DNA from: Burkholderiales bacterium 67-32
GTDB lineage: Bacteria; Pseudomonadota; Gammaproteobacteria; Burkholderiales; Burkholderiaceae_B
Direction of reading: 5' to 3'
Length of the DNA stretch: 64,000 bases
Assembly (NCBI GenBank): GCA_001898625.1
Contig: MKUP01000008.1
Coordinates: 1-64,000, forward strand
In this document: positions 648 through 9,596 of the stretch, one piece after another
Position numbering within the stretch: position 1 is the stretch's first letter
Layout of the letters: every line of letters begins with the position of its first letter
Position numbers and translations under genes: made by a program
The notes under the pieces: model-generated
Databases searched by the model: none
Seen by the model: the letters and a program-made list of their open reading frames with translations, nothing else
What the model was told of the DNA's origin: nothing

Positions 648-2642
648 ATGAACACCACAACCGTTGTAGAAACCCAGGCCGTGCAGGTGGCCGAACAGAC
701 CCAGGCCGTGATCGACAAGGCGCAGGTTGCGGCCCAGGAGGCGGCGGGCACCAGCCCGGCCGCGCAGGACACGCCGGCCGCCGAACTGCGCTTCATCGCA
801 CTGTCCCGGCTGCGCCTGTCCCGGCGCGATGTGCGCAAGACCGCCGTCCCGGTCGATGCCCTGGCCGAAAGCATCGCCCGCGTCGGGCTGCTGCAAAACC
901 TGATAGTCGTGCCGGTGCTGGGGCAGGACGACCTGTTCGAAGTCGTCGCAGGCGGACGGCGCTGGGCCGCACTGCGGCTGCTGGCCAAGCACAAGCGCAT
1001 CGCCCGCGACCAGACCATTCCATGCCTCGTCGTGCCCGACGACAGCGCCGTCACCGTGAGCCTGACCGAGAACGTGCAGCGCCAGGACATGCACCCGGCC
1101 GATCAGTTCGAAGCGTTCCTGGCCCTGGTCAACGAGGGGCGGCCGGTTGAAGACATTGCGGCCGATTTCGGCGTGACGCCGCTGGTCGTGCAGCGCCGCC
1201 TGCGGCTGGCGCGCGTGTCGCCGCGCCTGCTGGCCGACTACCGCCAGGGCGGCGTGACGCTGGAACAGCTAATGGCACTCACGCTCACCGACGACCATGC
1301 AGCCCAGGAAGCCGCGTTCTACGATGCGCCCGCCCACGAGCGCGAGCCCTATGCGCTGCGCCGCCGCCTCACGCAGCGCGACGTGGATGCGACCCGCAGT
1401 CCGCTGGCCCGCTTCGTCGGCGTGGACGCCTACACCGCCGCCGGGGGCGGCATCCGCCGCGACCTGTTCGCCCAGGACGAAGGGGTCTACCTGACCGACG
1501 CCGACCTGCTGGCCCGCTTGTCAACGGGCAAGCTGGCGGTCATGGCCGCCGGTGTGCGCGCCGAGGGGTGGAAGTGGGTCGAGGCGGCACCCGTCTTCGG
1601 CTACGCCGAACTGGCCGGGTTTCGCCGTGCCCCACAGGTGCAGCGCGAACCGACCGCTCGGCAGGCCAAGCAGATCGCCAGGCTGCGCGCCCGGCAGGCC
1701 GAGATCGAGGAAGCCCTGCACGCTGCCGAGGAAGCCGAGGACGAGGACGCCGCCGCGCCGCTCTACGAGGAAGGTGAGCGCGTTTGCGAAGCCCTGGACA
1801 CGCTCTATACCGGCCTGCTGGCCTACGCGCCTGAGACGCTGGCGGTTGCCGGCGCGGTCGTCACGCTCGACCGCGAAGGGGCGGTCGTCGTGCATCGCGG
1901 GCTGATGCGTCCCGAGGACGCGAAGGACGCCACCCAGGCAGCGCAGCCGGGGGACGGTACGAACGCCACCGACGGGGACGGCGCGAACAGCCCGGATGCG
2001 CCGCCGCAGGCCACGCCCGCCAAGACCCTTTCGGACCGGCTGGTCCGCAACCTGAGCGCGCACCGCACGGCCGCTCTGCAGGCCGAGGTGGCAGGCAAGC
2101 CTGACGTGGCCCTGGCCGTGCTGGTGCATCGGCTGGCGCTGGACGTGTTCTACGGCGGCAGCGACAGCCTGATGCAAATCCACGTTCATCCCCAGGACGG
2201 CCTGCGCCAGTACGCGCATGAACTGGCCGCAAGCAAGGCAACGGCCGAGTTCGATGCGCTGCGCACGGCATGGCGCGAACGGCTGCCCGTCGATGACGCA
2301 GAACTGTTCGACGCCTTGCGCCAGATGAAGCGGGCCGACTTGCTGGCGCTGCTGGCCGTGTGCGTGGCCGGCACGGTGGATGCCGTGACGCGCGACGAGC
2401 ACGATACCCGCGCCGATGCGCTGGCGCGGGCCGTCAAGCTGGACATGAGCGCCTATTGGCAGCCCACGGCCGAGGCGTATTTCAACCACGTCCCGAAAGC
2501 CCACATCCTGGCCGCGTTCAAGGCGTTCAAGCCGGGGGAAATCAGCCGGGTAGCAGGCTATCAGAAGGCGGTCATGGCAGCGGAAGCCGGCCAGCACGCC
2601 ACGGCTGCCAAGTGGCTGCCCGCCATGCTGTGCGCCGCATGA
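648..2642 (+). CDS. parB: ParB/RepB/Spo0J-family partition protein (664 aa)
   Basis: The protein has a typical ParB N-terminal nuclease-like domain at about residues 45-150. It includes a GGRRWAAL segment in place of the usual GERR box and the segment TENVQRQDMHPADQFEAF. A helix-turn-helix follows (VEDIAADFGVTPLVVQRRLRLA). At over 660 aa it is much longer than chromosomal ParB, with a C-terminal half of unknown role; this long form is usual in Tn4371-like ICEs. The start at 648 is chosen over the upstream open frame because AAGGAG lies at 635-640. A strong terminator follows at 2693. It probably partitions or stabilises the excised element together with the ParA encoded at 8677. Confidence 0.9.
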   Translation: MNTTTVVETQAVQVAEQTQAVIDKAQVAAQEAAGTSPAAQDTPAAELRFIALSRLRLSRRDVRKTAVPVDALAESIARVGLLQNLIVVPVLGQDDLFEVVAGGRRWAALRLLAKHKRIARDQTIPCLVVPDDSAVTVSLTENVQRQDMHPADQFEAFLALVNEGRPVEDIAADFGVTPLVVQRRLRLARVSPRLLADYRQGGVTLEQLMALTLTDDHAAQEAAFYDAPAHEREPYALRRRLTQRDVDATRSPLARFVGVDAYTAAGGGIRRDLFAQDEGVYLTDADLLARLSTGKLAVMAAGVRAEGWKWVEAAPVFGYAELAGFRRAPQVQREPTARQAKQIARLRARQAEIEEALHAAEEAEDEDAAAPLYEEGERVCEALDTLYTGLLAYAPETLAVAGAVVTLDREGAVVVHRGLMRPEDAKDATQAAQPGDGTNATDGDGANSPDAPPQATPAKTLSDRLVRNLSAHRTAALQAEVAGKPDVALAVLVHRLALDVFYGGSDSLMQIHVHPQDGLRQYAHELAASKATAEFDALRTAWRERLPVDDAELFDALRQMKRADLLALLAVCVAGTVDAVTRDEHDTRADALARAVKLDMSAYWQPTAEAYFNHVPKAHILAAFKAFKPGEISRVAGYQKAVMAAEAGQHATAAKWLPAMLCAA

Positions 2643-2692
2643 TCGGCCGATGACCCGGGCGGCGGGCTCGCCCGCTGCCTGGGGCGCTGCTG

Positions 2693-2736
2693 CGCCCGCC
2701 GTTCCTGCCGATGCTGGCAGGAACGGCGGGCGTTTT
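2693..2736 (+). terminator. rho-independent terminator after parB
   Basis: CGCCCGCCGTTCCTGCC (2693-2709) pairs perfectly with 2716-2732 across the six-base loop GATGCT, and TTTT follows at 2733-2736. It lies 50 bases past the parB stop codon. Confidence 0.8.
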
Positions 2737-3470
2737 GCGTGCCCATCGAGGGCCGTGCAAAACGGGTCGCCGCGTCCCGGTTGTGCCCGGGACGCGGCGG
2801 CCAACGTCCACGCCAGGCCGCCGTCCTGGTGGCCCATCGAGCGCCGCAGGCGGCGGGTCACGCCGCACCGCTGCGGGCCGCCGGGGTGCCGGCAGATTGG
2901 CGCCCGTCCAGCAGGCCGGGCGGATACGCATCTACGCCTGGATGCGACCGGGCCGGTTGTGCCCGATGCCGCCATCGCCCACCCTGGCGAGGTGAGCGTG
3001 CCGGTTGCGGCACGCCGCGCCCGAACCGGGCGGCGGGCGGACCGTTCACCACGCCGCGCCGATCCTGCCCACCTGGAGGCACCGGGGCTTTGTCGCCTTC
3101 CCGCCCGGCCGGAATCTTCGACATGTCCACGTCAGCGAACCGCATCACCCGCCATGTCACCACGGTGCAGGGTCTTGCCAGGATGCTTCCCGGGCAACGT
3201 CCTCACCCGATCGCACGGCCTTGTTTATGTGAATCCTGGCTGCGGCACGGCGGCCCGGGGGGCCACCTCGGGCTTCATCGGCGCAACCGTCCGGCGCAAC
3301 GATTTTCCCCTGCGCGTGCCGCGCATTCCTCGCGGGACAAAATCGCCGCGTCTCCCGGTCGTCCACTGCGTTTCCGCCCCTGCGGGGTGCGCCGCGCCCG
3401 GTCCTCGCCTGACCGGATCACACAAGGACGCGCAATCGGGCGCGGACTTGAACCCTCAAGGAGAATCATC
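2737..3470. other. long intergenic region between parB and the DUF736 gene
   Basis: About 730 GC-rich bases without a credible gene. Open frames here have no ribosome binding sites and no recognisable motifs. One item stands out: TACGCATC-TACGCCTG at 2925-2940, two octamers like those of the phased tract at 4336-4519. The DUF736 ribosome binding site (CAAGGAG) is at 3457-3463. Confidence 0.5.
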
Positions 3471-3779
3471 ATGGCCAACATCGGCACCTTCACCGCGCAA
3501 GACAACGGCTACAGCGGCACGGTCCGCACCCTGACGCTGAACGTCAAGGTCAAGATCGTTCCGTCCGACCGGGAAGGCGACAAGGCCCCGGACTTCCGCA
3601 TCCTGGCGGGCAACTTCGAAATCGGCGCGGCGTGGAAGAAGGTCTCCAACAACGACCGACCCTATCTGTCGGTCACGCTCGACGATCCGAGTTTCCCGGC
3701 CACGATCTACGCCAGGCTGATCGAGAACGAATCGGGCAGCCACGACCTGATCTGGTCGCGTCCCACCAAGGCGCGCTGA
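3471..3779 (+). CDS. DUF736 family protein (102 aa)
   Basis: A small soluble protein with the DUF736 signature: an N-terminal IGTFTAQDNGYSGTVRTL stretch and a C-terminal …LIWSRP ending. DUF736 genes are almost always found on conjugative plasmids and ICEs of Proteobacteria beside parB and DUF2958-type genes. Their biochemical role is unknown. The start at 3471 is set by CAAGGAG eight bases upstream. A longer in-frame extension exists but has no start signal. Confidence 0.85.
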   Translation: MANIGTFTAQDNGYSGTVRTLTLNVKVKIVPSDREGDKAPDFRILAGNFEIGAAWKKVSNNDRPYLSVTLDDPSFPATIYARLIENESGSHDLIWSRPTKAR

Positions 3780-3979
3780 TGCTCACCCGCCCGGCCCGCC
3801 GGGCGGACGCCGGCCCCGGCTTCGCCGTGGCCGGCATCTTCATGCGGACAGCGTGCCGCGTGCAGGCCAACGCCCGGCCTTCGCTTGGTCCGATTCGTCC
3901 GGCGTGCGTAGTTCCACGTCTGTCCTCACGCCGGCAGGGCCGGGACAATGGCGAACCTGACTTCCACCCGTGAGAAGGC

Positions 3980-4198
3980 ATGATGGACGAGCTGCGCGTG
4001 GCCTTGTTGAAGAACTGGCGTGCCCTGGGGTTTCGCTATCCGGTCTATGGTGTGCTCGATGCCGAGGAGCTTGCCCTGGACGCGCGGGCGACGCTGGTGC
4101 TCGATAGCGGTCATCATTGCATCGTGCAGGTCGAGGACGTGCTGCTATTACCTGGGATCGACGTTCACGACCTGGTTCCTGCCAGGTTCGATAGCTGA
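3980..4198 (+). CDS. small hypothetical protein (72 aa)
   Basis: Begins MMDELRVALLKNWRALGFRYPVYGVLDAEEL and is acidic towards the end (…LLPGIDVHDLVPARFDS). No signal peptide or membrane segment is visible. A GAGAAGG-like ribosome binding site stands directly before the ATG-ATG pair at 3980/3983. I do not recognise the family. Its position in the parB-to-repA block and a plausible start make a real gene likely, but it could be chance. Confidence 0.5.
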   Translation: MMDELRVALLKNWRALGFRYPVYGVLDAEELALDARATLVLDSGHHCIVQVEDVLLLPGIDVHDLVPARFDS

Positions 4199-4335
4199 TC
4201 CGGGCGTCCCCCGGCGCTGGCCGGGTCGCGCTGGCGTGCTGCGCATCGAGCCGGCGGCGGCGTCTCGACCTGCCGGCTTTCATCGCTGACGCGAATCCAA
4301 TCCCTTTGCCATCTGCCGAAGCCATGTCAGCGGGC

Positions 4336-4519
4336 CGTGGATTTACGTATCGACGTGTCCGCACATTTACGTGTCTACGACTTTACGGTTCGACGCCATG
4401 CCGCTTCGGCGGAACTACGGCTTCGCACAGAAACGACTTTGCGGCGTTTAGGCTTTCAGGTTCCGCGCAGATACGGATCTACGCATAGGGGCATGTACGG
4501 CTTTGCGGGTTCGCTTCTG
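4336..4519. repeat. degenerate tandem tract with an 8-bp period (about 23 octamers)
   Basis: Read in steps of eight from 4336, the units include TACGTATC, GACGTGTC, TACGTGTC, TACGACTT, TACGGTTC, TACGGCTT (twice), AACGACTT, TACGGATC and TACGCATA. CG falls at positions 3-4 of most units, and TT or TC at positions 7-8. Better-conserved 14-base copies start at 4342, 4366, 4382, 4414, 4470 and 4494, and all spacings are multiples of 8. Two matching units occur at 2925-2940. The tract lies between convergent genes and encodes nothing convincing. A protein-binding array (partition, replication or regulation) is possible. Confidence 0.7.
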
Positions 4520-4523
4520 GCTT

Positions 4524-4754
4524 TCATTCCGGCCAGTATCGGGTCGCCAGCACCACGACGCCAACGACGATCAGTAGGCCAAGCACGGCGATCAGTTCCG
4601 CCTCCATGTAGTCCAGGTCACGCTTCATTTTGCGTACGCTCGGATAATGCCCCAGCGTCAGGAGGTTGAGCACCAGCCAGCCGGGCCAGAAGAACACGGC
4701 CACGAATGCCAATTGCCGCAACACGAAGCCGAGGAATCCCAGGACGTGTTCCAC
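4524..4754 (-). CDS. small membrane protein, two transmembrane segments (76 aa)
   Basis: Two hydrophobic stretches are clear: about residues 5-34 (LGFLGFVLRQLAFVAVFFWPGW…) and about 53-71 (LIAVLGLLIVVGVVVLATRYW). A short charged segment rich in Lys and Arg joins them, so the middle probably faces the cytoplasm. The start codon is GTG at 4752-4754. It follows the NUDIX gene at close spacing on the same strand, suggesting a shared transcript with the XRE regulator further upstream. Function unknown. Confidence 0.55.
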   Translation of the reverse strand: MEHVLGFLGFVLRQLAFVAVFFWPGWLVLNLLTLGHYPSVRKMKRDLDYMEAELIAVLGLLIVVGVVVLATRYWPE

Positions 4755-4764
4755 GTTCCGCTCG

Positions 4765-5226
4765 CTACCGCGCTGCGGGAGTTATCCCCGCATCGGCCAG
4801 GATGGCCGGAATGTCGTCGGGAAAAACGGCCTCGCCGGTGCTGCGCAGTTCATCCAGCGTCCACCAGCGATGCTCGGTCATGACGTCGCGCTCCAGCTCG
4901 GTCCAGCCGTCTTTGGATAGGGGCTGTTCCTCGACCCGCATCAGAAAGAACCGTTCGTCGGCACGCACGTAAGAGCCATCCGGCATCTGCATCTCGAACG
5001 CGCGCTGCGCGATCGGTGCGCCGATGTCGTCGACCGTGAAGCCGGTTTCTTCGCGCAGTTCCCGCCGCGCGGCGGCCTCGAAGTCTTCGCCTTCATCGAC
5101 CGCGCCGCCGGGCGTAGCCCAGAAATCGCGGCCGGCCAGCGGCCCGCGCCGATGCACGAACCGGAACAGCAGCACGCGGTGGGCGGCATCGACGATGAGC
5201 AGGCGGGAGGACGGGCGGGTACGCAT
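4765..5226 (-). CDS. NUDIX hydrolase (153 aa)
   Basis: Carries a complete Nudix box, G-x5-E-x7-REL-x-EE-x-G (GGAVDEGEDF…RELREETGF), within a protein of usual family length. It should hydrolyse a nucleoside diphosphate linked to another group; the substrate cannot be read from the sequence. The start MRTRPSS at 5226 is preferred; an extension to 5271 is open but has little support. It is in line with the XRE gene upstream and the small membrane protein downstream, all leftwards. Such housecleaning enzymes are frequent passengers of ICEs. Confidence 0.85.
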   Translation of the reverse strand: MRTRPSSRLLIVDAAHRVLLFRFVHRRGPLAGRDFWATPGGAVDEGEDFEAAARRELREETGFTVDDIGAPIAQRAFEMQMPDGSYVRADERFFLMRVEEQPLSKDGWTELERDVMTEHRWWTLDELRSTGEAVFPDDIPAILADAGITPAAR

Positions 5227-5283: not shown

Positions 5284-5571
5284 TCAGAGGTCGACCTTGG
5301 ACAGAATGGTCTCCAGCTCCCGGCGCACCTGCGCCAGAACATGATCGGCCTGGCGCGCATTGCCGGCATAGGCCAGCGTCAGCAGCGTGACGGGGTGGAC
5401 CTGCATGACCTCGCACAGCTCGGCCAGCTTGTCGAGCGTGGGATTCTTCAGCCCGCGCTCCAGGCTGCTCAGGTACGTGCGGCTCGACACGTCCGAGAAA
5501 TCCTCCTGGCTCAGTCCGCGCGCCTTGCGCGCCTTCCGGAGCGCGCCCGCCAAGTTGTGTTCGGTCGCCAT
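5284..5571 (-). CDS. XRE-family transcriptional regulator (95 aa)
   Basis: A Cro/C1-type helix-turn-helix fills residues 8-62 (LRKARKARGLSQEDFSDVSSRTYLSSLERGLKNPTLDKL…). A short C-terminal helix follows. No extra domain is present. A perfect inverted repeat at 5609-5633, about 40 bases before its start, is the likely operator and suggests autoregulation and control of the divergent DUF2958 gene. The same nine-base half-site occurs upstream of the integrase gene, so it may also govern excision (inference). Confidence 0.9.
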   Translation of the reverse strand: MATEHNLAGALRKARKARGLSQEDFSDVSSRTYLSSLERGLKNPTLDKLAELCEVMQVHPVTLLTLAYAGNARQADHVLAQVRRELETILSKVDL

Positions 5572-5607
5572 CCCGTCTGCCCAAAAAACAGGATGACAGC
5601 CGATTGC

Positions 5608-5633
5608 ACCCTATAGGACTACAATCTATAGGG
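5608..5633. promoter_or_regulatory. palindromic operator upstream of the XRE gene
   Basis: CCCTATAG at 5609-5616 and CTATAGGG at 5626-5633 form a perfect inverted repeat with a nine-base spacer. It lies between the leftward XRE gene and the rightward DUF2958 gene. Half-site spacing fits a dimer of a small HTH repressor. Confidence 0.6.
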
Positions 5634-5814
5634 CTCATTTTAGGCCCGGACCGTCAATCCGGCTCCACGGATCGACGTTCTTACGCTGAGACCGGCCACG
5701 GCCGGCCCGTGCCGGCGGAGACTGCTGCCTCCTGGCTTGGCCTTGGAAGGCCGGTGTACACCCGCTATCATCGGCCGCGTGGCAACCGCTTCCGGCCGCG
5801 TTCAGGAGATCGCC

Positions 5815-6162
5815 ATGCCGCTCATCACCGCCGCGCAGCATGCCCGCCTGCTGGATCAGGGCCGGCAGCGCGCCCGCGATCCCGGCTTCGATCCGGTGCC
5901 GGTCGCCAAGGTCTACACGCCGGATGCCGGCGTGGTGTGGCTGCTGGCCTATGCCTACCCCGATGACCCGAGGCGGTTGCATGGCTTGTGCGATGCCAAT
6001 ACGGGCTTCCCGCAGCTTGCGGACATTCGCCTGGATGACCTCGAAGCCATCCGCGGCCCGCGGGGCGTGCCACTGGCTGCGGACCCCCGTTTTACGCCGA
6101 CGCGCACGCTGTCGGACTACGCCGCGCGGGCAATCGCCCACGGCGCATACGTCGAGGACTAG
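5815..6162 (+). CDS. DUF2958 family protein (115 aa)
   Basis: Matches DUF2958: PVAKVYTPDAGVVWLLAYAYPDDPRRLHGLCD near the middle, then LRGPRG-type and LSDYAARA-type segments at the end. Members are soluble proteins of unknown function found on conjugative elements. AGGAG at 5803-5807 sets the start at 5815 rather than the longer open frame from 5737. Confidence 0.85.
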   Translation: MPLITAAQHARLLDQGRQRARDPGFDPVPVAKVYTPDAGVVWLLAYAYPDDPRRLHGLCDANTGFPQLADIRLDDLEAIRGPRGVPLAADPRFTPTRTLSDYAARAIAHGAYVED

Positions 6163-6302: not shown

Positions 6303-7085
6303 ATGCGTGCGTCTGACGATGATGCCGCGCCCTGGGAGGCGACGGCGGCCTACCTGTATCTGCTTCAACTGGACCCCCCCGCGCTGGCGTGGGAATACCT
6401 GCGCCGCGATCCGGCCTACCGCGCCTGCTGGCGCCGGTTCGGCCGGCGGGCCGGTGCCGAGGCGGCCCGGCCCTGGGGCCTGGCCTGGCTCGCGGACCCG
6501 AACCGGGACGCGCGCGATGCGCATCCGGTCTGGGATGACTGCCTGCCTTCGCTGCTGCACCTGCGTGCAACCGGCGGCCAGACGGGCGCAGGCCTCGACC
6601 TCTGGCACATTCCCGGCCCCAAGCGCCTCATCGCGCTGCCCGACGGGTTCGCGCTGGAGGCGGGCGACGGCGCGCACGTGCTGCGCGCCCGGCTGGGCTC
6701 GGGCGTGCTCGAAGGTCAGCCGGTGTTCTGTACGGTGCCGCTCGATGCGCGCCTGCATGCGCAGGCGGCGCTGCTGGCCGCGCATGCGGCCCACCTGGCG
6801 CCACGCCGCGCGTGTCCACGGGCGCGGTATGCAGCGAGCCATCTCGTGCCGCTGGCCGCGCGGCATCATCTTCACGCCCTGCAGGCGCTCGATGGCGCGC
6901 GGGCCGGCGCTTCGCAGCGCCACATCGCGGAAGTCATCTACGGCCGCGACCGGGTGCATGCCTACTGGCACACCGACAGCGCGCTGCGTGCGCAACTGCG
7001 CCATAGCCTCGCGCGCGGCTTCGCTCTGATGCGCGGTGGCTATCGGGACTTGGCCGGGCTGCGTCCGGCCTGTACCCGCAGATAG
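6303..7085 (+). CDS. DUF2285 domain protein (260 aa)
   Basis: The N-terminal segment (AAYLYLLQLDPPALAWEYLRRDPAYRACW, residues about 13-41) is the ‘transcriptional regulator’ start seen in ICE-borne DUF6499/DUF2285 proteins. The C-terminal DUF2285 part has a HTH-like stretch (ALDGARAGASQRHIAEVIYG…). Members are thought to be regulators of element functions. The start at 6303 follows AGAGGA at 6292-6297. It is the first gene of the block leading into repA. Confidence 0.8.
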   Translation: MRASDDDAAPWEATAAYLYLLQLDPPALAWEYLRRDPAYRACWRRFGRRAGAEAARPWGLAWLADPNRDARDAHPVWDDCLPSLLHLRATGGQTGAGLDLWHIPGPKRLIALPDGFALEAGDGAHVLRARLGSGVLEGQPVFCTVPLDARLHAQAALLAAHAAHLAPRRACPRARYAASHLVPLAARHHLHALQALDGARAGASQRHIAEVIYGRDRVHAYWHTDSALRAQLRHSLARGFALMRGGYRDLAGLRPACTRR

Positions 7086-7211: not shown

Positions 7212-7499
7212 ATGGCCACGTCCCCCGTTTCCCTGTCCGCCCCATCCGCGCCCGCGCACGCTGTCGTCGCGGCGTCCGCCCGCGCGCCGCGCTACCTGAC
7301 CAATGACGAGGCCGCCGACTATCTGCGATTGTCTCCGCGCACGCTGGAAAAACAGCGCGTTCAGGGGGGCGGGCCGCAGTTCAGAAAGTTCGGCCGGCGC
7401 GTGCGCTACGCCATCTCGGATCTCGACGCTTGGGCCGACGAGCATAGTTATTCCATGACCTCCGACCCCGAATACCTGGACCGCCGCGCCGGCCGCTGA
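7212..7499 (+). CDS. AlpA/MerR-type helix-turn-helix DNA-binding protein (95 aa)
   Basis: After an Ala-rich N-terminus of about 25 residues comes an excisionase-like HTH (RYLTNDEAADYLRLSPRTLEKQRVQGGGPQFRKFGRRVRYAISDLDAW), the form known from AlpA and many ICE excisionases. CTGGAGGC lies just upstream. Directly followed by repA with a 26-base gap. It could be a recombination directionality factor for the integrase or a regulator of repA; the sequence alone does not decide. Confidence 0.85.
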   Translation: MATSPVSLSAPSAPAHAVVAASARAPRYLTNDEAADYLRLSPRTLEKQRVQGGGPQFRKFGRRVRYAISDLDAWADEHSYSMTSDPEYLDRRAGR

Positions 7500-7525: not shown

Positions 7526-8374
7526 ATGGCCAAGCGGCGAACCTCCGCCGGCGAGCGCGAACAGCTTGCGCTGTTCCAGGCGCTGCCCGGCGACATGCGA
7601 CCGCGCGACGCGCGCGATCTCATGTCGTATCCCTTTTTCTCGCTGGCCAAGCAGAAGCGCATCGCCCCCATCGACTTCGAGGCCGGGCCGGTGCGCATCC
7701 GGGTCGAGGGCGTGCCCGAGCACGGCATCGCCACCATTTGGGACGCCGACCTCATGATCTGGGCCGCCAGCCAGCTTGTCGCTGCCCGTGACCGTGGGCT
7801 GGCGACCTCGCGGTTGATGGCCGCCACGCCGCACGAAATCCTGACCTACACCGGCCGCGGCACCGCTCAGGATGACTACCGCCGCCTGCGCGCCGCGCTG
7901 GACCGTCTGCAATCGACGACCGTGGCGACCTCGCTGCGCCAAGCCCATAGCCAGCGATTGCATCGGTTTTCGTGGGTCAACGAGTGGAAGGAAATCGTGC
8001 GGCCCGGCGGCCGCTCGGCCGGCCTCGAATTGATCCTGCCCGATTGGTTCTACAGCGGCGTGATGTCCGATGCCTTGGTGCTGGGCATCGACCCGCGCTA
8101 TTTCGCCCTCACGGGCGGCATCGAACGATGGCTCTACCGGCTGGTTCGCCGCCACGGCGGCACGCAGCGGATGGGTTGGGGATTCGAGCTGCGTCACCTG
8201 TACGCCAAGTCCGGTAGCCAAGCCCGTTATTCGGACTTCGCGCTGGACGTGCGGCGGCTCGCGCAGCGCCAGGCGCTGCTTGGCTATCGCCTGCGCGTGG
8301 CCCATGCCGGTGGCGTCGAACAGCTGTTTTTCTACCGCCAGTCGCATCGGCCATCTGACACGCCTGCGCCCTGA
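7526..8374 (+). CDS. repA: RepA-type replication initiator (282 aa)
   Basis: Belongs to the ‘replication initiator protein A’ family: MSYPFFSLAKQKRIAPIDF near the N-terminus, IWDADLMIWAASQ, then a central TPHEILTYTGRGT segment and a winged-helix-like C-terminal half. Length is typical for the ICE/IncP-related group. It should bind the iterons that begin 75 bases after its stop codon and open the origin. Co-directional with the AlpA-like gene before and parA after it. Confidence 0.9.
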   Translation: MAKRRTSAGEREQLALFQALPGDMRPRDARDLMSYPFFSLAKQKRIAPIDFEAGPVRIRVEGVPEHGIATIWDADLMIWAASQLVAARDRGLATSRLMAATPHEILTYTGRGTAQDDYRRLRAALDRLQSTTVATSLRQAHSQRLHRFSWVNEWKEIVRPGGRSAGLELILPDWFYSGVMSDALVLGIDPRYFALTGGIERWLYRLVRRHGGTQRMGWGFELRHLYAKSGSQARYSDFALDVRRLAQRQALLGYRLRVAHAGGVEQLFFYRQSHRPSDTPAP

Positions 8375-8404
8375 TGGCGCACACAGAGAGAGGGGTAAAC
8401 CCAA

Positions 8405-8600
8405 TGTGGATAACTTGTGGACAACCTTGTGAATATCTTGCGGATGCGTTCGGGGTTTTGGGCGCACGCGATTCGGGGTTTCAGGCGCAGAAAGTTCGGG
8501 GTTTTAGGCGCAGCGATGGCTGGAAAGCCGCGCCAGCATTGGCGATCCGGGGCGCTCCTAACTCTCTAACTAAAAGACTAACTAAGATTGATAGTGGGAG
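8405..8600. other. candidate replication origin (oriV): DnaA boxes, iterons, AT-rich stretch
   Basis: Three elements follow each other between repA and parA. TGTGGATAA at 8405-8413 is a perfect DnaA box on the minus strand, followed by TGTGGACAA at 8416-8424, a near-perfect one. Three iterons occupy 8449-8512. An AT-rich segment (CTAACTAAAAGACTAACTAA region, about 8557-8597) could be the unwinding element. This layout is that of iteron-controlled plasmid origins. Confidence 0.75.
8449..8512 (+). repeat. three iterons of 18 bp at 23-bp spacing
   Basis: TTCGGGGTTTTGGGCGCA (8449-8466), TTCGGGGTTTCAGGCGCA (8472-8489) and TTCGGGGTTTTAGGCGCA (8495-8512) differ at only two positions. Starts are exactly 23 bases apart, about two helical turns, as in plasmid iterons bound by Rep proteins. 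Confidence 0.85.
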
Positions 8601-8676: not shown

Positions 8677-9360
8677 ATGGCCGGCGCGCTTGACGCCAGC
8701 CTCGACCCGCCGCGTTGCGGCCAGGTCATCGCGCTGGCAACCCAGAAAGGCGGCGCGGGCAAGACCACGTTGGCCACGCACCTGGCCGGAGAACTCGCCT
8801 TTGCAGGCTTTCGGGTCGTGCTGATCGACGCGGACCCGCAGGGCTCGGCCTCGGACTGGGCCGAACGCCGCGCGCAGAACGCCCGTCAGCGCCTGTACGG
8901 CGTGATCGGGCTGGCCCGCGAGTCCTTGCATGTCGAAGTCCCGCAAATCGCCCAGGGAGCCGATTTCGTGGTGATCGACGGGCCTCCCCGGGCCGAGGCC
9001 ATCACGCGCTCGGCGCTGCTGGCGGCCGACCTGGTGCTGGTGCCCGTACAGCCGTCGGCGTATGACGTATGGGCCAGCAGCGACATGGTGCGCTTGGTCC
9101 AGGAAGCGCGAATCTACCGGCGCGAACTGCGGGCGGCCTTCGTCATCAATCGCAAGGTCGTGCGCACCGTCGTCGGACGCGAGGTGCGCGAAGCACTCGC
9201 CGATCAGCCGCTGCCGGCGCTCGCGGCCGACGTGTCGCAGCGCATCGTGTTTGCCGACAGCGTGGCGGCGGGCCTGCTGGCCCGCGAACGCGACGAACAC
9301 GGCGCGGCGGCGCGCGAGGTTGCACGGCTGACGGCGCACGTGCGCGAGGCGTTGCAATGA
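8677..9360 (+). CDS. parA: ParA-family partition ATPase (227 aa)
   Basis: Deviant Walker A motif KGGAGKTTLATHLA near residue 27, followed by VVLIDADPQGSASDW (A') and FVVIDGPPRAEA (Walker B). Length fits small ParA/MinD ATPases. The open frame runs back to 8374 through the iterons, so the true start must be downstream; ATG 8677 is the best choice. The next gene overlaps by ATGA. Works with the DNA-bound partner (79-aa RHH protein and/or ParB) to segregate the excised element. Confidence 0.9.
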   Translation: MAGALDASLDPPRCGQVIALATQKGGAGKTTLATHLAGELAFAGFRVVLIDADPQGSASDWAERRAQNARQRLYGVIGLARESLHVEVPQIAQGADFVVIDGPPRAEAITRSALLAADLVLVPVQPSAYDVWASSDMVRLVQEARIYRRELRAAFVINRKVVRTVVGREVREALADQPLPALAADVSQRIVFADSVAAGLLARERDEHGAAAREVARLTAHVREALQ

Positions 9361-9596
9361 GCGGGTCGCGTGTCCGCGCCGCCATCGGCCAGCGCCCGGC
9401 TTCGACCGCCGCGACGGCCTGGGTGCAGCGCGGCGATGCGCGGCTGCCCACGCCGGCCTACACGGCGCGGCTCACCATTGATGTCACGCCCGCGCTGCGC
9501 GGGCGCATCAAGGTGACCGCCTTTCGGCGCGGCGTCACCGCCGCCGTCATGCTGCGCGAACTGCTGGAACGCGAGTTTCCGGGAGAGGCATCGTGA
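9357..9596 (+). CDS. ribbon-helix-helix-like ParA partner (79 aa)
   Basis: ATG overlaps the parA stop (ATGA). The C-terminal half (ARLTIDVTPALRGRIKVTAFRRGVTAAVMLRELLEREF) looks like a ribbon-helix-helix fold: a short strand then two helices. The N-terminus is basic and probably disordered. Small RHH proteins encoded directly after parA often serve as centromere-binding proteins or repressors of the par operon. Function inferred from shape and position. Confidence 0.7.
   Translation: MSGSRVRAAIGQRPASTAATAWVQRGDARLPTPAYTARLTIDVTPALRGRIKVTAFRRGVTAAVMLRELLEREFPGEAS

Follow-up and report, generated by a model that had tools for sequence, protein, structure and literature searches.

The window, by which we mean the entire stretch of 64,000 nucleotides analysed here, contains an array of contiguous 8-bp units (octads) that is real and conserved, and that is most likely a ParG-like octad centromere, as predicted by sequence comparison. 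We estimate a probability of about four in five that this array is the type Ib (ParF-ParG-parH-like) partition site of a Tn4371-type integrative and conjugative element (ICE), bound by the small ribbon-helix-helix (RHH) protein of the element and probably serving as an operator too. The array has a strict period, recurs at one place in many related elements, and occurs in elements encoding a ParA-RHH pair; the RHH protein is related to ParG at the profile level, and octads of the same type lie beside parA-parG operons of plasmids.

The octad array and its neighbourhood in the window

The first-pass annotation had described a phased tract of about 23 octamers with CG at unit positions 3-4 and TT or TC at positions 7-8, and had proposed the autocorrelation at lag 8 as a check. 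Our analysis confirms the strict 8-bp period and yields 23 contiguous units. In the segment 4336-4519, lags 8, 16, 24, 32, 40, 48, 56 and 64 have z values from 4.1 to 6.4 relative to 2000 dinucleotide-preserving shuffles, and 0/2000 shuffles match the observed value at any lag from 8 to 64 in steps of 8. In the frame of that annotation, CG occupies positions 3-4 in 16/23 units and TT/TC positions 7-8 in 15/23, both being present in 11/23; the best-phase CG count of 16 exceeds all 2000 shuffles (mean 5.7, maximum 10). The eight-column information of 184-bp segments, scanned in steps of 8, peaks at position 4337 (107.9 bits), the highest value in the whole 64 kb (mean 16.2, sd 5.9). The array borders (Table 1) were set by a matrix trained on other loci, which assigns the array 82.5 bits, the runner-up in the window having 16.7. 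Tandem Repeats Finder does not list the array at 4336-4519 even at score 30. Two extra units had also been noted near 2925; they are present at 2924-2939 but not above chance, their score being reached in 22/300 shuffles of 2643-3470. Upstream of the DUF2958 gene, where the array normally lies, four phased units give a weak signal (5/300 shuffles reach their score) and may be a remnant or a small operator.

Table 1. Octad units and genes of the element in the window.
Feature	Positions	Strand	Details
ParB_N protein	648-2642		
DUF736	3471-3779		
orf72	3980-4198		
Octad array	4335-4518	.	23 contiguous 8-bp units, 184 bases; CG (or CA) at core place in most; predicted centromere and operator
Small ORF	4524-4754	-	membrane-type by eye; adjoins array here and in L032/L043; not part of site
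NUDIX	4765-5226	-	
XRE regulator	5284-5571	-	between array and DUF2958 in the window
Four phased units	5657-5688	.	usual array place (upstream of DUF2958); 12.6 bits; weak
DUF2958 gene	5815-6162	+	Pfam PF11171, E 1e-27
RovC-type DNA-binding / DUF2285 regulator	6303-7085	+	Pfam PF10074, E 1.1e-19
AlpA-like HTH_17 protein	7212-7499	+	Pfam PF12728
RepA, replication initiator protein A (RPA)	7526-8374	+	Pfam PF10134, E 2.1e-78
ParA partition ATPase	8725-9360	+	NCBIfam NF041546 ParA_partition, 256 bits (cut-off 180)
RHH protein, ParG-like, predicted centromere-binding	9357-9596	+	Pfam RHH_10; profile match to ParG proteins

The array directly follows orf72 in the gene order and is separated by three minus-strand genes from a co-directional run encoding DUF2958, RovC/DUF2285, the AlpA-like protein, RepA, ParA and the small RHH protein. 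The parA start is uncertain and was chosen from the length of relatives; a Pfam scan of the small ORF adjoining the array found no family. Pigmentiphaga humi dnA1 (locus L041) has the same element, 11/11 compared window proteins being 100% identical, and a genome of the same genus (G191, contig C46) agrees with the window at all 561 bases around the array. The maintenance block resembles the Tn4371 element, and the Polaromonas plasmid pPNAP01 discussed with it, as far as the relevant parts of the published description go (PMC2789088).

A DNA search of plasmids and of 268 family genomes mostly recovered a different sequence, a conserved piece of about 93 bp at 4200-4292, directly after orf72, and not the array. 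Matches to the region occur in 190 plasmid records (251 places); those of the best 20 of the 190 all lie on this piece, as do most matches in 45/268 family genomes. No gene is annotated under it in 19 of the 20 best plasmid records, the twentieth being unannotated. Apart from the copy in G191, the arrays have their phase in common and not their sequence.

Several further elements were observed in this region. The promoter region of the XRE gene (~5600-5635, CCTATAG..CTACAATCTATAG) is similar in L042, L044-L047, L064 and L065. A pair of steps of the TACG/TGCG type, 10 bp apart (e.g. TACGTAGTTCTACGTC), is conserved upstream of orf72, outside the octad pattern (~3904-3920 in the window, ~1508 in L032, ~2531 in L034). 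An origin-like block at 8400-8520, between repA and parA, consists of TGTGGATAA-type repeats, which we take to be DnaA-box-like, followed by three 22-23-bp iterons (TTCGGGGTTT..GGCGCA).

Octads in related elements

Matches to the RHH profile were found in 46/268 genomes of the family, 8/369 of the class and 17/398 of the phylum (the window's own genome counted each time), and no homologue was found in phages at E 1e-2. The host genome of the window contains at least four arrays of this kind, on contigs C8, C9, C18 and C24, that on C9 being the period-8 tract of a second element. Among DUF2958 loci in named genomes, 9/11 have a period-8 tract (L041-L049: P. humi, three of Bordetella petrii, MAGs of Rubrivivax, Pusillimonas and Acidovorax, an Alcaligenaceae strain and Xylophilus), and L050 and L051 have none. 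Among the first eight plasmids with an RHH homologue, the tract lies between the XRE and DUF2958 genes in the plasmids of Klebsiella, Delftia and Polaromonas, and at another place upstream of parA in those of Azospirillum and Methylobacterium; none was found near the par genes in the Acidovorax, Ketogulonicigenium and Rhodopseudomonas plasmids.

The first-pass annotation would have been refuted by a lack of excess at lag 8, which is contradicted above, or by absence of the pattern from all related elements. The latter was assessed in 100 loci around RHH matches, with up to 8 kb upstream of each (several are cut by contig ends, and 7/100 have no ParA or RHH match in blast), and the outcome again favours the feature. 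A detector scoring CG/TG/CA at a fixed step gives a median of 22.7 at step 8, compared with medians of 10.6-12.0 at control steps 5, 7, 10, 11, 13 and 14 (99th percentile 16.7, maximum 19.7). A DUF2958 gene is borne by 76 of the 100 loci (67 distinct stretches, several per genome, hence not all independent), and ParA, RHH and RepA matches occur in 76/76. Upstream of DUF2958 the step-8 run scores above 15 in 75/76 of these loci, above 16.7 in 71/76 and above 19.7 in 61/76, so that 15/76 do not exceed the highest control score. The only locus below 15, L212 (13.9), yet has a matrix score of 69.5 bits. The distance from the array end to the DUF2958 match has a median of 25 bp (range -51 to 592), and genes intervene between the two in the window, in C9 and in L032/L043. 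The sequences of the recurring arrays differ, while CG (or TG/CA) is kept at each eighth position.

For the unit composition, the 1477 units of 66 distinct ICE arrays were combined into a matrix, leaving out the array of the window. These arrays have 11 to 37 units (median 22), and the unit consensus is close to TTGCGSAT. The core step is CG in 785 units, TG in 313, CA in 160 and other in 219. Among 72 changed core cells (the 20 commonest classes), 31 are exchanges between CG and TG and 17 between CG and CA, these being raw counts that include the transition bias. In 27 independent pairs of relatives, changes affect 114/1162 core sites and 406/3324 other array sites, a modest conservation of the core; changes accumulate faster in the array overall than in the flanking DNA. 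Indels in multiples of 8 make up 6/15 in the array and 0/29 in the flanks of these pairs, and 43/200 and 6/256, respectively, in all 166 pairs at 80% or more (a loose pairwise alignment of the arrays gave noisy indel counts, and a stricter alignment was used instead). Judging by the classes of core changes, the rates of site changes and the indels in multiples of 8, the array seems to be constrained more in phase and core step than in sequence.

Twelve RHH loci have no DUF2958. In the 140 bp at their parA start, the octads outscore all 300 permuted matrices in L207, L222 and L226 (0/300 each) and nearly all in L225 (4/300), and are borderline in L220 (13/300). In 7/12 nothing octad-like was found just upstream of parA, and with L220 8/12 are unclear. 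One locus with no octads at the parA start, L206, has a strong array (46.7 bits) about 1.7 kb upstream of parA, and the Azospirillum locus L063 has one of 39.1 bits about 3.2 kb upstream. Within the retrieved DNA of L165, L199, L221 and L224 no array stands clearly above controls, and L050, which has both DUF2958 and RHH genes, has no array in the 2.4 kb upstream, where its contig ends.

DUF2958 genes with no RovC or AlpA matches have no array in eight loci (L039, L040, L051, L053-L056, L059), five of which (L053-L056, L059) cover 3.3 kb each. L054 and L059 do not represent elements lacking the RHH gene, because a further copy of DUF2958, accompanied by an array, is present on each of their contigs (L058, L061). 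The ninth such locus, L062, has a weak run. Similarly, no array is present in five loci that encode a ParB_N homologue and give no RHH match in the retrieved DNA (L035, L036, L037, L040, L051); the sixth of this kind is again L062. Its run (1864-1919, contig C17; 23.3 bits) lies between the DUF2958 gene and the ParB gene; C17 carries the fourth ParA-RHH module of that genome, whose par genes have no array nearby (L199). Octad-like runs of 28.7-35.8 bits were also seen far from parA in alphaproteobacterial elements (L068, 655-718 and 5146-5233; L231, 1047-1110 and 2908-2955), some within annotated genes; they could be displaced sites or chance matches.

The ParA-RHH pair and ParA-ParG plasmids

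The RHH open reading frame lies directly downstream of parA, overlapping its end by 4 bp, and the same order is seen in relatives wherever both genes lie within the retrieved DNA. The window protein matches Pfam RHH_10 with E 4.2e-5 and 24.2 bits, below the family cut-off of 27. It has a beta-strand ARLTIDV and a conserved Arg-Pro in its N-terminal tail. Strand residues R39, T41 and D43, which by analogy with RHH proteins we take to face the DNA, are invariant in 14/14 RHH proteins, and R14, in the tail a candidate arginine finger, is invariant in 13/13 ICE-type ones. The predicted model is strand-helix-helix at low confidence (pLDDT 64, below 50 for residues 1-14). In a fold search with this model nothing reached E<=0.001; of its first seven rows, six are RHH-containing proteins. 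The profile of ICE RHH proteins gave only weak matches in the PDB, among 12 of them ribosomal L27 (0.023), ParD (0.063), VapB26 (0.17) and omega (0.72).

The ICE RHH profile aligns with that of ParG-plasmid proteins with a probability of 98.8 and E 5.5e-17 (hhalign, a single comparison) over 75 columns with 36% identity, and the alignment runs end to end, tail motif included (RPA..ATAWV and KPT..ADAWV). The ParG-plasmid proteins match Pfam ParG in 15/15 cases at E<=0.01, and a search with their profile picks up TP228 ParG, whose structure is solved (1p94), at 6.4e-10. None of 13 ICE-type RHH proteins matches Pfam ParG (PF09274) at E<=0.01, while all match RHH_10, and we therefore call the ICE protein ParG-like, outside Pfam ParG. 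The earlier suggestion, that some protein of the partition/replication block may be bound here, is supported in its general form; the likely partner is the small RHH protein whose gene immediately follows parA, which had not been named, rather than the ParB, XRE or AlpA-like proteins that had been.

A plasmid search with the RHH protein of Methylobacterium, whose ParA-RHH plasmid has octads just before parA, gave 212 records, many among the matches listed being annotated as ParG. We analyzed 16 plasmid loci, 14 of the ParG type together with the Methylobacterium and Methylorubrum plasmids, and counted as near a top matrix match within 150 bp of the parA start or the parG end. The ICE-trained matrix has its top match beside parA-parG in 13/16 loci, by a rule fixed after a first look at eight of them; 200 column-permuted matrices average 4.24 with a maximum of 12, none reaching 13 (averages across runs 4.2-4.5), and the wrong steps 7, 9, 10, 11 and 12 place 1, 1, 0, 1 and 0 loci near. 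In the first eight loci the match is near in 8/8, equalled by 1/200 permuted matrices; in the eight later ones it is near in 5/8 (permuted mean 1.19, maximum 4, 0/200 as high). The best match lies elsewhere in three plasmids. Two of them have a changed strand (L246, RVNFDL; L242, RFSVDI, with the parA start assumed), and the third, L243, keeps RLTIDV. A column-information test at step 8 in ten regions upstream of parA gave 0/200 shuffles as high in L070, L230, L233 and L237, and 3 to 9 of 200 in L235, L238 and L234; no signal was seen in L236, L231 and L232 (35, 160 and 80 of 200 shuffles, respectively).

Proposed function, alternatives and known systems

Three features of a type Ib system are found in the window: a ParA Walker ATPase of the small class, scoring well above its family cut-off, a small RHH protein directly downstream of it, and short contiguous repeats upstream of the par operon, though about 4.2 kb from parA and not at its promoter. 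According to the available parts of one study (PMC2789088), the ParA of Tn4371 is of type Ib and the ParB beside it in Tn4371 elements is truncated in all cases; our data suggest a complete RHH protein rather than a truncated ParB at the Tn4371-type locus. In the literature searched, which mostly excluded subscription papers, no description of the site in Tn4371-type ICEs and no text joining Tn4371 with ribbon-helix-helix was found.

According to the proposed mechanism, RHH dimers would bind one per 8-bp unit, centred on the CG/TG/CA step, and would form a filament over the 23 contiguous units. The coated DNA would then be captured by ParA through the N-terminal tail of the RHH protein, predicted to be flexible, and ParA would sort the excised, plasmid-like form of the ICE to daughter cells. 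Since the array heads the DUF2958-RovC-AlpA-RepA-ParA-RHH run in most relatives, it is probably an operator too, at which the RHH protein may repress this run.

Other readings fit the data less well than a type Ib partition site. Within ICEs the array co-occurs with DUF2958 and RepA as tightly as with the RHH gene, and it could be an operator or leader of the DUF2958 run, used by XRE, AlpA, RovC or DUF2958 itself with no link to partition. The position upstream of DUF2958 in 75/76 loci speaks for this, as does an XRE homologue on the minus strand in 44/76, mostly at the other side of the array. Nevertheless, we consider it unlikely: plasmids whose listed annotation of the retrieved stretch, incomplete as it is, includes neither DUF2958 nor an AlpA-type gene also have matching octads next to parA-parG, the array is absent from the eight DUF2958 loci that lack RovC/AlpA (five of them short, two of these on contigs with an array elsewhere), and other genes separate it from DUF2958 in the window and in L032/L043. 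The RepA matches in 76/76 DUF2958-bearing loci would also agree with a replication origin or an iteron set of the RPA-type RepA, a very improbable reading given the separate origin-like block between repA and parA and the octads next to parA-parG in four plasmids for which the annotation listed over 6 kb, itself incomplete, names no RepA (L235, L238, L241, L245).

A decayed or slipping microsatellite devoid of function, one of the two origins initially proposed, could account for the 6/15 array indels in multiples of 8, as slippage would give, and for an array that evolves faster than its flanks. This proposal is disfavoured by the same 8-bp phase at one place, upstream of DUF2958 in 75/76 loci, in many arrays of different sequence, by core changes that mostly keep the pyrimidine-purine step (raw, transition bias included), and by matching sites beside parA-parG in 13/16 ParG-type plasmids; we give it very little weight. 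Least probable of all is an action of the tract as RNA (a structured leader or small RNA) or through an encoded peptide. The L047 array contains a long inverted repeat (by eye) and open reading frames cross the tract, but the window array has a folding z of 0.05, with 97/200 shuffles folding as well, and a period of 8 fits no reading frame.

If the array is the site of the RHH protein, the element has a complete partition module, and the persistence of excised ICEs and their sharing of cells become open to direct experiment. The octad matrix also flags partition sites of ParA-ParG plasmids without alignment (13/16). More tentatively, and with rather more doubt than confidence, we may envisage one old CG-octad centromere code common to Tn4371-type ICEs, their plasmid forms and ParA-ParG plasmids of Alpha-, Beta- and Gammaproteobacteria. 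In the ICEs the array would have moved to the head of the combined regulation-replication-partition run, and because of this place one RHH filament would link repression of the integrated element to segregation of its excised form; turnover of whole octads would set which elements can coexist in one cell. According to the portions of the literature consulted, genes for catabolism and resistance are carried by elements of the Tn4371 type in various Proteobacteria.

Among known systems, the parS sites of HTH ParB proteins are palindromic, and contiguous 8-bp units are unlike them. The met boxes of MetJ form a tandem RHH operator of 8-bp units with a CG centre (AGACGTCT); to our knowledge, they are short chromosomal operators with no partition role. 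The parH site of TP228 also has an 8-bp pitch. It differs in its core, ACTC, compared with CG/TG/CA in the ICEs; the ParG strand is KRVNVNF, compared with ARLTIDV; and the ICE array lies about 3-4 kb upstream of parA, heading a longer run that includes repA. The likeness of TP228 ParF-ParG-parH to the ICE system, in the parts of the sources available, consists in the order of the two genes, a ParA-type ATPase and then a small RHH protein, whose tail is flexible in ParG and predicted to be so in the ICE, and in an array of short repeats upstream; in TP228 these are degenerate boxes separated by spacers ahead of the operon, and ParG binds an operator as well (PMC7308502, PMC5016525).

The omega/heptad parS system of pSM19035, in which omega is an RHH ParB, also has contiguous short repeats overlapping promoters, each bound by one omega dimer, and omega needs at least four contiguous heptads (PMC9499535, in the excerpts available). 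Its units are 7-bp WATCACW, with 7-10 per site, whereas the ICE units are 8-bp with a CG core, about 22 per array. In pMET1, eight imperfect direct repeats unrelated in sequence to those of TP228 lie over the parF promoter of parFG (PMC2262945, likewise in part); it is a plasmid system, while the ICE arrays are longer and lie away from parA. The ICE array shares the common design at a pitch of 8, and it is for this reason that we take it to be the predicted centromere and operator of the ParA-RHH pair.
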